Origin: Candidatus Zixiibacteriota bacterium
GTDB lineage: Bacteria > Zixibacteria > MSB-5A5 > GN15 > FEB-12
Length of the DNA stretch: 64,000 nucleotides
Assembly (NCBI GenBank): GCA_029860345.1
Contig: JAOUBJ010000006.1
Span: 124,001 to 188,000, forward strand
Direction of reading: 5' to 3'
The position numbers were made by a program, and so were the translations under genes. The notes under the pieces are model-generated. The model was not told where the DNA came from. It ran no database searches and saw only the letters and a program-made list of their open reading frames with translations. Positions 7,893 through 12,206 of this stretch are shown in pieces (the stretch's first letter is position 1; every line of letters starts with the position of its first letter).

Positions 7893-8302
7893 GTCAAGCG
7901 CTCCGCCGTTTCTTGTCAATTGCCTCAGTCACACCGGATACTAATGAATGCCAGTGCGTATGAGCAAGATTTTTCACAGGCAAGGCGACAAGTCGCTTCT
8001 TTGTGCGTCGCGGTATAAATCACCTTTGTGCGCTCCGCGCTTTGTAGCCTCAAAGTGGGTGCTCCCAACCTCACCTTGAGCGGAGTCGAAGGGTGAACCT
8101 ATTGTGCCAATAACCGTCCCAAACCTTGTGTGAGACGGCGAGTGGGTGGCACCCTCAAACCCGGTTTGGGGGTGATCTTCTGCCTAACACGCACCCGTCC
8201 CAAACAAAGTTCGAGACGACCACCCAACCGAAGACTGGATTCCAGTTTTGGCGCCGTAATGACAGTTGGGGAAGTCGTCGCACAAAAAAAACAAAAAAGT
8301 GT
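7893..8302. repeat. Repeat-rich gap before the ABC exporter locus
   Basis: Contains a variant of the CCTGAGCGNAGTCGAAGG inverted repeat (about 8066-8096) and a long element gtgggtggcaccctcaaacc...tttgggggt with a following cccaaac...gagacgaccaccc part (about 8138-8232). The latter recurs in inverted form at about 14896-14975 and 20310-20400. No plausible gene. Confidence 0.6.
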
Positions 8303-8330
8303 TTGACATCGATTAAGAAATCCATAAATT
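8303..8330 (+). promoter_or_regulatory. Promoter of the leader peptide/ABC exporter operon
   Basis: TTGACA (8303-8308), 16-bp spacer, TAAATT (8325-8330). Predicted start near 8337, so the transcript would carry about 270 bases before the first ABC gene at 8609, including the leader ORF and terminator. Confidence 0.65.
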
Positions 8331-8412
8331 AGTCGAAACATTCGCCAAATAGAAACGTCAAGTATTGGAATGAAACGCTAATCCGCCGCGAAACTGTTAC
8401 GAGGAGAGTTTG

Positions 8413-8490
8413 ATGTTGAATCAAATGAATAACTATATCTCGAATGGCGTACCGAAATTTCGCGGCGGGTGGTGTATGAATCGCTTGTGA
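8413..8490 (+). CDS. Leader peptide of ABC exporter operon (25 residues)
   Basis: A 25-codon ORF from ATG 8413 to TGA 8488-8490, with the strong Shine-Dalgarno GAGGAGAG at 8401-8408. It ends in F-R-G-G-W-C-M-N-R-L and is rich in Asn in its first half. Codons 16-20 coincide with segment B of the attenuator. It stands between a good promoter and an intrinsic terminator, 118 bases ahead of the exporter genes, the position expected for a regulatory leader rather than a functional peptide. There is no run of one amino acid, so stalling by an inhibitor of translation seems likelier than amino-acid starvation (inference). Confidence 0.55.
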   Translation: MLNQMNNYISNGVPKFRGGWCMNRL

Positions 8491-8511
8491 ACAGATTCAC
8501 ATAAAGATTTC

Positions 8512-8551
8512 AACCCGCCGCAACCGAAAAGGTCCGGCGGGTTTCTTTTTT
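8512..8551 (+). terminator. Intrinsic terminator in the ABC exporter leader
   Basis: Stem AACCCGCCG (8512-8520) with CGGCGGGTT (8535-8543), an inner ACC/GGT pairing around a GAAAA loop, then TTTCTTTTTT (8542-8551). It lies before, not after, a structural gene, which is why attenuation is suspected. Confidence 0.85.
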
Positions 8552-8608
8552 GAGCTAAGTCCCGTCGAGCCTTCAACATAAACGACTGAATGAAAAGAAG
8601 GTGAGAAA

Positions 8609-10420
8609 ATGACCGCTGAATTCTATGAAGATGAGAAAGCAACCGCCGAGGAAAAAGATATAGGCTCCAAAAAGGCGTTCGGCCGGCTGCTCCCCCTGTT
8701 AAAAGAACACACCAAGGGTCTGTTGTTCTGTCTCGGTCTCCTGGCCGGTGCCACTTTGCTGTCGATTTACTGGCCGATTCTGATCAAAACAGCGGTCGAT
8801 ACCGACATCAAAAGCGGCGACTTCGACGGCCTTCTGTGGACCGCTCTGGCCATCGGCGGGCTCCAGGTTGCTACCATCCTGTTTCAGTATATTCAGCGCA
8901 TTCGTCTGGAAACTATCGGACAGGATGTGATGGTTGCCCTGAAACGCAAACTATACCACCATATTCTGTCGCTGGATGTTTCGTTCTTCGACAAGAACCC
9001 GGTAGGTCGACTGCTGGCCCGGGTCGAGTCGGACACGGAAGCGCTTAGGATGCTTTTCACCAACACTGTGGTGCTGGTGGTGGGTGACTTTCTTTTGGTG
9101 GCCGGAATCTACGCGGTCATGTTCTATTACAGTTGGCGGCTGGCCTCGCTTCTGTTGATCGTGGTGCCGATAGTTGCGCTGCTGGTAGTGATTTTCGAAC
9201 GTAAGACGACCAAGCGGTTCTTGAACGTTCGCAAGAAAATGGCCGAAGTGACAGCTACCTTGACGGAGTTTTTGCACGGCATGTCGATTGTGCAGATATT
9301 CCATCGCGGCGCCTATGCGCAGCAGCGGGTGAGTACGGCCAACCGGGAGAAGTTCGCCGAAGATACCTATGTCAATATTGCCGTAGTGCTGTTCTTCAAC
9401 ACTGTCTTCTTCTTTGAATCGGTGATGTTAGCGCTGGTTTTGTTTTTTGGCGATCAATGGCGCCAAGCGCACCTGATCACGTCCGGCACGTTCATCATGT
9501 TCATTGTATTGATTTGGAAGTCGTTCGAGCCTATCTGGCGCGTTTCGGAACAGTTGTCGACCATTCAAAAAGCTGTGGCCGGCGCCAAGCGGATCTTTGC
9601 CCTGCTGTCCACACCACAAAGACTGCTGGACCCGGCCAACCCGGTGCGCCTGACCGGTCTCAAAAAATCGATCCGGTTTGAGAAGGTGTGGTTTTCGTAC
9701 ACCGACGATGACAATTATGCGTTGAAGGACGTCAGTTTCGAGATTCCGGTCGGCAAGCGGTTCGCGCTGGTCGGCGTAACCGGTGGCGGCAAGAGCACGG
9801 TGATATCGTTGCTGCTCAGGCTGTACGATCCACAAAAGGGTCGCATCACCATCGACGGCGTTGACATACGCGACATCCGCAAAGCCGACCTGCGCGGCCA
9901 GTTTGCCCTGGTGTTACAGGATATCTTTCTCTTCCCCGGCGATGTGACGTCGAACATCTCGCTGGATTCAGATGAGATGGAAGCTGCAACCATCGAGGAT
10001 GCAGCCCGAACAGTCGAAGCCGACCGGTTCATCGACAAGTTGCCGGACAAGTACGGCACCGAGGTCTCCGAGAAAGGGTCCAATTTCAGCCGCGGTGAAC
10101 GTCAGCTACTATCGTTCGCGCGCGCGTTGGCATCCGAGCCGGATATCCTTCTGCTCGATGAAGCGACCAGCTCGGTCGACCCGGAGACGGAGCGGACTAT
10201 TCAGAGTTCGCTTAAGAAACTGATGGCCGATCGTACTTCGATAATCGTGGCCCACCGGTTGTCGACGATTCTCGATGTCGATCAGATTCTGGTCATCCGC
10301 CGCGGAGAAATAATCGAACGCGGTTCACACACAGAATTGTTACTGCAGGACGGTTACTACTCGAAACTGTTCCACTTGCAGTTCAAGCATAGAAACGGAG
10401 TGTTAGCAGATGCTGGATAA
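8609..10420 (+). CDS. Heterodimeric ABC exporter subunit (catalytic-Glu half)
   Basis: 603 residues: about six membrane helices (roughly 35-345), then an ATPase domain. Walker A G-V-T-G-G-G-K-S-T is near 388-396, Q-loop L-V-L-Q-D near 435. The signature is degenerate, F-S-R-G-E-R in place of L-S-G-G-Q (about 491-497). Walker B has D517 and an intact catalytic Glu E518; the H-loop is A-H-R-L-S-T. It pairs with the next gene, whose reading frame overlaps by 11 bases. The layout matches heterodimeric multidrug exporters such as BmrCD/YheIH, TM287/288 and LmrCD; this half corresponds to the one with the full Walker B. Substrate unknown. GGTGAG precedes the ATG. Confidence 0.92.
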   Translation: MTAEFYEDEKATAEEKDIGSKKAFGRLLPLLKEHTKGLLFCLGLLAGATLLSIYWPILIKTAVDTDIKSGDFDGLLWTALAIGGLQVATILFQYIQRIRLETIGQDVMVALKRKLYHHILSLDVSFFDKNPVGRLLARVESDTEALRMLFTNTVVLVVGDFLLVAGIYAVMFYYSWRLASLLLIVVPIVALLVVIFERKTTKRFLNVRKKMAEVTATLTEFLHGMSIVQIFHRGAYAQQRVSTANREKFAEDTYVNIAVVLFFNTVFFFESVMLALVLFFGDQWRQAHLITSGTFIMFIVLIWKSFEPIWRVSEQLSTIQKAVAGAKRIFALLSTPQRLLDPANPVRLTGLKKSIRFEKVWFSYTDDDNYALKDVSFEIPVGKRFALVGVTGGGKSTVISLLLRLYDPQKGRITIDGVDIRDIRKADLRGQFALVLQDIFLFPGDVTSNISLDSDEMEAATIEDAARTVEADRFIDKLPDKYGTEVSEKGSNFSRGERQLLSFARALASEPDILLLDEATSSVDPETERTIQSSLKKLMADRTSIIVAHRLSTILDVDQILVIRRGEIIERGSHTELLLQDGYYSKLFHLQFKHRNGVLADAG

Positions 10421-12206
10421 AATAAGATGGTTCTGGCGATATTATCGCCGTTACAAGTATGTACTGGCATTGTTGATTATACTGACGCCAATCCAGGCGG
10501 CTTTCCAGGTGTCGATTCCGAGAACGATCGAATTCAGTATCGACTACTTCGAAAGCGGTCAAGTTTCCGATCACTGGGCGGCGCACCTGATAGATGACGC
10601 GGCGCATAGTTATGGTCTGTCGACCGCCGCCGGACTGGCCCTTACTCTGGTCATACTCGGTCTAACGGCCGGGATTCTGTATTCAGTGGTACAATCGCAT
10701 CGAGCCTGGATGAACCTGAAACTGGAGTGGCTGTTTCGCCAGGATGCGTTCGACCGGATCACACTGAAGGGACCGAATTTCTTCAACGACTTTCGAACCG
10801 GTGATCTGGTAACCCGCATGACCGACGATGTGGCCGAGAAACTGTCGTGGTTTGCTTGTAGTGGTATATTCCGGCTATACGAGGCTTTGGCTTTCGTAGC
10901 TTTCACGATCTACATGATGACCACAATCGATCCGACGTTGACCTTGTGGACGGCCGGTCCGTTGCCTATTTTGATTGTAATCTTCTTCGTGAGCGCATCG
11001 GTTTTGGACAAACGTTATGACCATCTGCAAACACGCATTTCGCGTTTCAACGATGTCATGGAAGCCTGTTTCTCGGGCATCCGCGTAGTCAAGGCGTATG
11101 TCAAAGAGCCGGCTCAGAAGAAGAGTTTCGAGACGGCGGTGCAGGATCGCCGGAATGCGGAGATTTCAACGATCAAAGCGATGACTGTCGTTGAGTCGAT
11201 GTACCATTACATCTGGCAGCTCGGCATCATCATTGTGATAGTCGGTGGCGGATACCTCGCTATCAACAGTAATCTGTCGGTCGGCAAGCTCAGCGCCTTT
11301 GTCTATTTGACGGTCTACCTGATTTTCCCGATGTTCGACATCGGTCAGTTCCTGGTCAAATCGCGCCAGTCGGCGGTGTCTATCAACCGGCTGGTCGAGC
11401 TTGAGAAGGTAGCTCCGATGGTGGCCGACAACGGTCATCAAGGCGCCAACGGCAATGTGGTCGGACGATTGACCTTTGAGAACGTTCGGTTCAGGTTCCC
11501 CGATGGTGAGCGGGATATCCTTGATGACATTTCGCTTGAGATCGAAGCCGGTCAAACTGTGGCCGTCGTCGGTCGGGTTGGTTCCGGCAAGAGCTGGTTG
11601 ATAAACATGATCCCGCGCCTGGTCGAACCGACCGGTGGTGTGGTCAAGCTCGACGGCAATGATCTGAAGATGTTCCGACTTGAGGACCTGCGCAGCAATA
11701 TCGGCTACGTACCACAGGAGCCGACGCTGTTCTCGGACACGGTGAAGAACAACATTCTGTTCGGACGCGAGAGTGTCTCCGATGCCGTGCTGGAGTGGGC
11801 GATCGATGTCGCGCAGCTCAAAGACGAAATCGCTACCTTTCCCAAAGGTATCGAAACTGCAATTGGGACACGCGGCATGTCGATCTCGGGTGGTCAGAAA
11901 CAGCGACTGGCTCTGGCCCGGGCGCTGGTGGCCAAACCGAAGATATTGATCCTCGACGATTGCACTTCGGCCTTGGACTCGCGCACCGAGACCGCTCTTT
12001 GGCAGCGGTTGCACGAAGTGATGCCGGGTATGACGGCGATCCTGATCACGCATCGTCCGGACACCCTTGAGAGCGCGGATAATATTTTCGTGCTGGACAA
12101 CGGACGGGTGGTCGAAACCGGTAGGCATCATCAGTTGATCGCCGGTGACGGGCATTACGCTCGGATTTACAAACGGTATCGCCTGGCCGAAGAGGTCGGC
12201 GCGTAG
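10410..12206 (+). CDS. Heterodimeric ABC exporter subunit (degenerate Walker B half)
   Basis: 598 residues with the same order: six membrane helices (roughly 20-320), then ATPase. Walker A G-R-V-G-S-G-K-S is near 388-395; the canonical signature S-I-S-G-G-Q-K-Q-R is present. Walker B reads I-L-I-L-D516-D517: Asp replaces the catalytic Glu. H-loop T-H-R-P-D-T. Thus this subunit supplies the good signature to the partner's active site, and its own site is non-catalytic, the known asymmetry of heterodimeric exporters. Its start overlaps the upstream gene by 11 bases with GGAG at about 10397. Likely exports drugs, lipids or peptides from the inner membrane (family inference). Confidence 0.92.
   Translation: MLDKIRWFWRYYRRYKYVLALLIILTPIQAAFQVSIPRTIEFSIDYFESGQVSDHWAAHLIDDAAHSYGLSTAAGLALTLVILGLTAGILYSVVQSHRAWMNLKLEWLFRQDAFDRITLKGPNFFNDFRTGDLVTRMTDDVAEKLSWFACSGIFRLYEALAFVAFTIYMMTTIDPTLTLWTAGPLPILIVIFFVSASVLDKRYDHLQTRISRFNDVMEACFSGIRVVKAYVKEPAQKKSFETAVQDRRNAEISTIKAMTVVESMYHYIWQLGIIIVIVGGGYLAINSNLSVGKLSAFVYLTVYLIFPMFDIGQFLVKSRQSAVSINRLVELEKVAPMVADNGHQGANGNVVGRLTFENVRFRFPDGERDILDDISLEIEAGQTVAVVGRVGSGKSWLINMIPRLVEPTGGVVKLDGNDLKMFRLEDLRSNIGYVPQEPTLFSDTVKNNILFGRESVSDAVLEWAIDVAQLKDEIATFPKGIETAIGTRGMSISGGQKQRLALARALVAKPKILILDDCTSALDSRTETALWQRLHEVMPGMTAILITHRPDTLESADNIFVLDNGRVVETGRHHQLIAGDGHYARIYKRYRLAEEVGA

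Follow-up and report, generated by a model that had tools for sequence, protein, structure and literature searches.

The region ahead of a heterodimeric ABC exporter in an uncultured Zixibacteria species (Candidatus Zixiibacteriota) is very likely a ribosome-mediated transcription attenuator (vmlR/bmrB/ermK/trp type), in which a ribosome stalled early in a short leader open reading frame (ORF) would give read-through into the exporter genes. Five lines of observation bear on this explanation, which fits them best: the sequence itself, its conservation, the covariation of three helices, the kept reading frame of the leader ORF, and the behaviour of the folds under ribosome masking. The attenuation proposed in the initial annotation is supported, and the response to antibiotics is putative. 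The element was analysed in a window of 64,000 nt (the whole stretch of DNA under study), and its features are collected in Table 1.

The two exporter genes overlap by 11 nt, and each product is a complete ABC half-transporter with the Pfam domains ABC_membrane and ABC_tran. Their relatives by sequence are TmrA/TmrB, TM0288/TM0287 and YheH/YheI (BmrD/BmrC); among the NCBIfam families shown, the exporter proteins reached no curated cut-off. Chain 1 combines a non-canonical signature with a catalytic Glu, and chain 2 a canonical signature with Asp, which predicts one degenerate ATP site. Such an asymmetry of the ATP sites is typical of heterodimeric exporters (BmrCD, TM287/288). With adjacent half-transporter genes and a degenerate site, the pair belongs to the heterodimeric type IV ABC exporters (BmrCD, TmrAB, TM287/288), and its family resemblance suggests that the substrates may be drugs.

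The promoter, the 25-codon ORF led by a Shine–Dalgarno sequence (SD) and the intrinsic terminator could be read directly in the order in which the initial annotation had placed them: positions 8303–8551 carry a sigma-70-type promoter, segment A, the SD, the ORF with segment B inside it, the ORF stop codon, segment C, segment D and a T-run. The promoter matches the consensus at 10 of 12 positions and is one of two promoter-like sites in 7900–8700, where shuffled sequences give 0.9. TTGACA and a TATATT-like hexamer are kept at the same position in relatives, and transcription is predicted to start near 8337. At the 5′ end of the transcript, 31 of 42 loci have a GAAAC-like motif and CGT(A/C)A spaced by exactly 16 or 17 nt; this conserved 5′ element was part of no helix found among the loci compared.

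Table 1. Features of the exporter leader and operon (window positions)
Feature	Position	Strand	Basis
Promoter TTGACA-16-TAAATT, sigma-70-type	8303..8330	+	TTGACA 8303-8308, 16-nt spacer, TAAATT 8325-8330
Conserved 5′ element, GAAAC 8335-8339 ... CGTCA 8356-8360	8335..8360	+	spacing conservation
Segment A, 5′ arm of the anti-antiterminator A:B	8383..8393	+	11/11 pairs with 8458-8468
Shine–Dalgarno AGGAG of the leader ORF, 6 nt 5′ of ATG	8402..8406	+	sequence reading
Leader ORF, 25 codons + TGA, MLNQMNNYISNGVPKFRGGWCMNRL then stop	8413..8490	+	same-place ORF in 40/42 loci
Segment B, within the ORF, partner of A or C	8458..8470	+	pairing and covariation
Hairpin P3, TGTGAA/TTCACA, contains the ORF stop codon, apex of B:C	8486..8501	+	fold z in 40 loci
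Segment C, partner of B (antiterminator) or D (terminator)	8512..8521	+	pairing and covariation
Segment D, 3′ arm of the intrinsic terminator	8535..8543	+	C:D pairing in 40 loci
Terminator T-run	8542..8551	+	sequence reading
Half-transporter 1, BmrD/TmrA/TM0288-like; signature FSRGERQ, Walker B ...LLLDE	8609..10420	+	sequence, homology
Half-transporter 2, BmrC/TmrB/TM0287-like; signature ISGGQ, Walker B ...LILDD	10410..12206	+	sequence, homology

The pairings proposed earlier, A:B (11/11), B:C (8462–8470 with 8513–8521, 9/9) and C:D (8512–8520 with 8535–8543, 9/9, then TTTCTTTTTT), are all exact in the sequence, and the folds beat those of shuffled sequences. The four-segment description holds in that A, B, C and D are all present, but A:B is longer than the 11 pairs first noted (about 13 continuous pairs), and a hairpin between B and C, P3 (8486–8491 with 8496–8501), had been missed. 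The 212-nt transcript (8340–8551) folds into A:B, the small hairpin P3 and C:D at −68.4 kcal/mol (z −3.85; none of 200 shuffles folded as well); folded alone, B-P3-C has a z of −3.81 and C:D of −3.80. C:D escaped a simple terminator scan because that scan allows loops of no more than 8 nt. The antiterminator B:C and the intrinsic terminator C:D are mutually exclusive, as both use C, and both covary. An earlier third structure that would block the antiterminator is present as A:B, weak in 8 of 40 loci (L028, L029, L043, L046, L047, L048, L049 and L053), and a short ORF with a ribosome-binding site, predicted to be translated, overlaps the switching structures.

Two repeats were also observed in the window. 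A dispersed motif close to TTGAGCGGAGTCGAAGG occurs at 8076–8092 and at six other places (seven copies, at most two mismatches; none in shuffles), and an imperfect 24-nt direct repeat, CCGTCCCAAACCTTGTGTGAGACG, lies at 8114–8137 and 8195–8218 in the gap 5′ of the promoter.

Relatives were collected by searching genome contigs with the protein of the first exporter gene, which gave 60 loci from metagenome-assembled genomes; 42 upstream regions, including that of the window, were aligned. An SD-led ORF of 22–30 codons was found in 40 of the 42 loci, with its start between A and B and its end 17–27 nt 3′ of the start of the B core. In these 40 loci, the distance from the start codon to B takes ten values (46–64 nt), which are equal modulo 3 in 37 loci, the distance from B to the stop codon likewise keeps one frame in 37, and the stop-to-C and B-to-C lengths take all remainders, with no 3-periodicity. 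The leader peptides differ almost completely except for the residues encoded by B, and no conserved arrest motif was seen in those compared. A frame that is kept together with a peptide that is not conserved is the pattern expected if what counts is translation of the ORF and not its product, and it argues that the ORF is not incidental; we infer that the leader ORF is translated. The initial annotation had named as the telling counter-example a relative that keeps the exporter and loses both the ORF and the pairing. This was clearly seen in no locus, a statement outside which family f17 (L173–L176) stands; the sister loci L031 and L041 have a remodelled version, with a 16-codon ORF that ends before B and without a canonical terminator after the ORF.

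These results bear directly on the least improbable alternative, namely that the terminator is under the control of a ligand-binding riboswitch or an RNA–protein switch, with the ORF merely incidental. In its favour are the conserved 5′ element (GAAAC-16/17-CGT), which precedes A, and the conservation of P3 (mean z −1.44 in the 40 loci; −0.24 to +0.08 on average in control stretches from these leaders). However, the SD and ORF in 40 of 42 loci argue against it, as does the frame kept from start to B and from B to stop between flanking lengths that are not 3-periodic. In addition, no aptamer-like block of invariant unpaired bases was seen in the loci, and no Rfam 15 family reached its gathering score (the three matches listed have 16.6–19.6 bits vs cut-offs of 35–49.5), which together make a riboswitch improbable.

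The distribution of the element was explored with a covariance model of B-P3-C-D, R1, which was run on 132 Zixibacteria genomes. R1 matched at E <= 0.01 in 85 of the 132 genomes and gave 71 strong matches (E < 1e-5), counts that are partly non-independent since many of these genomes had supplied training loci. Two of the strong matches are located at contig ends, and 68 of the 69 that were assessable lie directly 5′ of the exporter gene, an orthologue of which is present in 97 of the 132 genomes. In families f2, f3 and f5, which match R1 poorly, the leaders retain a sequence resembling a promoter, a short ORF, and either a terminator or a hairpin, whose stem letters differ from those of R1; B:C complementarity is kept in several poorly matching loci (L166, L171, L172, L177 and L178). 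All four f2 exporter leaders (L166, L167, L177 and L178) appear to carry two tandem short ORFs, which in L177 read MSKFIHNLTISGILG and then MTNMITYLSGVSCSNGVVQRLRRLLS, each closed by a stop codon. Behind the leader, L098 (G013) and L116 (G017) show an exporter gene that is either duplicated or split; these cases may be assembly or masking effects, because both run into masked N stretches. A scan of the phylum with the pattern TGGTGGTGGTGG was discarded, as its matches mostly look like ordinary coding sequence. The presence of the element in Bacteroidota was likewise rejected: three marginal matches in 296 genomes (E 1.4e-4 to 7e-4 per genome) were treated as chance, and no exporter homologue was found in the stretches around them. 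In the genomes of other phyla that were checked, no exporter homologue exceeds 40% identity, and none was seen to follow a comparable leader, with several starts uncertain.

The sole strong R1 match that is not before an exporter, L141 (G131:C8:2236–2341, minus strand), precedes, together with a terminator, a gene read from its sequence as a chorismate mutase–prephenate dehydratase–DAHP synthase fusion. Its leader, MNRFATTADVYYYQYFGLFTQPRAGVNPPH, is rich in Tyr and Phe (VYYYQYFGLF), and L141 is likely a classical aromatic amino-acid (Tyr/Phe) attenuator. Two weak R1 matches, L155 (G064:C126) and L159 (G065:C114), are located just 5′ of putative trpE-trpG-trpD genes; their leaders, which belong to family f2, have four consecutive Trp codons (RNWWWWSIP and QYWWWWPMS, respectively) and are likely trp attenuators. 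Based on these three leaders, classical ribosome-mediated attenuators very probably exist in Zixibacteria, and the exporter leaders differ from them by lacking a codon run. At the trpE of the window's own genome, no leader ORF was seen, and another gene lies directly upstream.

That the exporter leader is itself an amino-acid-specific attenuator of the trp type, sensing one uncharged tRNA, is less probable still than a riboswitch. It shares with trp and phe attenuators the 1:2, 2:3 and 3:4 pairing, a leader ORF and a terminator, Rfam Trp_leader gives a weak, sub-threshold match, and the phylum has the Trp and Tyr/Phe leaders just described. In contrast to those attenuators, B lies within the ORF, and no run of one amino acid's codons was found in the window leader or in its relatives; the composition of codons 2–14 largely follows base composition, with a moderate excess of Asn only, and the operon is one for export rather than for biosynthesis.

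The pairing was further examined by a swap test, in which the fit of a locus's own arms was compared with that of arms exchanged with loci less than 75% identical. Own partners were better than swapped ones in 37 of 40 loci for B:C, 37 of 40 for C:D and 29 of 40 for A:B, and three pairs of non-partner arms, used as controls, gave 24, 18 and 20 of 40. In a retest of A:B, with the whole 5′ leader allowed as the source of A and the 40 loci clustered at 65% identity, the own fit exceeded the swapped fit in 23 of 28 clusters (Wilcoxon p 1.5e-4). Among the helices, conservation is highest for C:D, with 94.7% of cells paired in 40 loci and a covariation score of 0.266 vs 0.138 in shuffles; B:C plus P3 scores 0.202 vs 0.137, and A:B has 68.9% of cells paired vs 63.9%. 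None of 500 shuffles reached the observed values of C:D, B:C plus P3 or A:B, and all slid versions of the helices were lower in percentage paired. Since the shuffles do not preserve relatedness, single-locus cases weigh more. All four segments have changed together in L052 (A cgtcgcg, B cgcgacggg, C cccgtcgcg, D cgacggg) and in L061 (A acgtcgt, B acgacggg, C cccgtcgt, D cgacgggc), and A, B and C have done so in L051 (ccattgcga, tcgcagtgg and cccgctg, respectively). In L030 and L062, A is located about 30 nt upstream instead of beside the SD, and it still matches B there. The search for compensatory changes in relatives, a check put forward with the original proposal, was positive for A:B, B:C and C:D. 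A further hairpin just 5′ of B, P2, was dismissed as a general part of the element, being absent in the window and having a mean z of −0.63, though it is clear in many relatives (L017, L038, L042, L052).

The least probable alternative, a fixed intrinsic terminator that merely lowers exporter expression, with A:B and B:C as by-products of a repeated GC-rich motif, would agree with the high conservation of C:D and with equilibrium folding, which favours C:D, but not with the covariation of A:B and B:C beyond swapped and slid controls, with the A that has moved and still matches B (L030, L062), or with the persistence of B:C in distant families with clearly different stem sequences (L171, L172). 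Each of the three alternatives, riboswitch, amino-acid sensor and fixed terminator, conflicts with at least one test result.

The attenuator was then modelled by masking, that is, by folding the RNA downstream of a ribosome placed at each codon, with pairs across the ribosome forbidden; the results are equilibrium calculations on partial transcripts, not kinetics. In 37 of the 40 loci, the untranslated leader has at least 5 expected A:B pairs before C is made. Once C but not D has emerged, B:C forms in all 40 loci with the ribosome at codons 1–11, in 33 at codon 12, in 1 at codon 17, and in none from codon 19 onwards. In the complete RNA, C:D is dominant with late ribosomes and without translation; with early ribosomes, B:C and C:D compete, and equilibrium still favours C:D for most early stalls. 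Induction therefore relies on B:C forming before D, which is a kinetic assumption. When pairs were allowed to enclose the ribosome, the long A:B of the window survived most stalls before codon 12. In many relatives, A adjoins or overlaps the SD, and there an initiating ribosome would cover A.

In the mechanism proposed for the attenuator, A:B would form first and act as an anti-antiterminator, so that in an untranslated transcript B would be held away from C and C:D would terminate. A ribosome moving at normal speed would sit on B or on the stop codon in P3 while C and D are made; B:C would not form, and the transcript would end near 8551. If the ribosome stalled or crawled within about the first 12 codons, A:B would be prevented and B left free, and B could then pair with C, with P3 at the apex, before D is made, allowing read-through into both exporter genes. 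The signal would most likely be a slowing of translation by antibiotics that target the ribosome and that the exporter would remove; antibiotics as the cause of stalling are suggested by the exporter family and by analogy with bmrBCD and vmlR. Termination in the cell, the kinetic order of folding and the inducing drugs are thus predicted parts of the scheme.

A wider reading is possible, and is advanced tentatively, as it is somewhat more doubtful than not. The element may be a phylum-wide drug-sensing attenuator of a chromosomal multidrug exporter, with a leader peptide that carries no signal of its own, so that only the place of the ribosome in the first ~12 codons would count and general translation stress would be reported. 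Its arms would have been rewritten letter by letter, with A relocated in some lineages, and f2 would appear to have gained a second tandem short ORF.

Most of the transcription attenuators known to respond to antibiotics are from Gram-positive bacteria. In B. subtilis, bmrBCD is induced by ribosome-targeting drugs and requires translation of its leader (PMC4191407). The comparison with bmrBCD drawn in the initial annotation is apt in two respects: translation of a leader is predicted to attenuate transcription into a heterodimeric ABC exporter of the same multidrug type, and the leader is not recognisably BmrB, as no BmrB-like peptide was found in the window leader. Unlike the ORF described here, which has 25 codons and ends about 21 nt before the terminator stem, the BmrB ORF encodes 53 residues and contains the terminator, and the gene order bmrC-bmrD is reversed in the window, where the BmrD-like gene is first. 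The closer mechanistic match is vmlR, which encodes an ABCF resistance factor of B. subtilis: drug-induced stalling on an upstream ORF (uORF) in the anti-antiterminator frees an antiterminator with an apex hairpin, and sequence variants of the uORF are tolerated (PMC9226507). The two leaders share a uORF inside the anti-antiterminator, an antiterminator with an apex hairpin and an intrinsic terminator after it. The vmlR uORF has 3 codons, an extra hairpin hides the vmlR SD and the gene is of the ABCF type, whereas here the ORF has 25 codons with B inside it, its stop lies inside the apex hairpin, and the gene encodes a membrane exporter in another phylum. No sequence relation was seen between the window leader and the vmlR leader.

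The statement that no such control had been reported in FCB bacteria was too strong. Translational attenuation of tetQ in Bacteroides is cited in one source (PMC5418344), and leader-peptide attenuation of amino-acid operons has been inferred in Flavobacterium psychrophilum (PMC9723704). The tetQ leader resembles the exporter leader as a drug-responsive attenuator of an FCB bacterium, the drug response being putative here, but tetQ is a ribosome-protection gene and the control acts on translation, not on transcription termination. In the literature searched, no report was found of transcription attenuation of a drug exporter in the FCB group, or of an attenuator in Zixibacteria. The exporter leader would be a known kind of device with its own geometry (B inside the ORF, stop codon in P3) and wide conservation.

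The leader constitutes a defined RNA family that is absent from Rfam, and it offers a case in which to study how a switch based on a leader peptide persists through near-complete sequence change. In this uncultured phylum, the attenuator is intrinsic to a chromosomal exporter, and many families have retained it, its four RNA segments coevolving strongly; such conservation suggests a long-standing environmental exposure of these bacteria to translation inhibitors.
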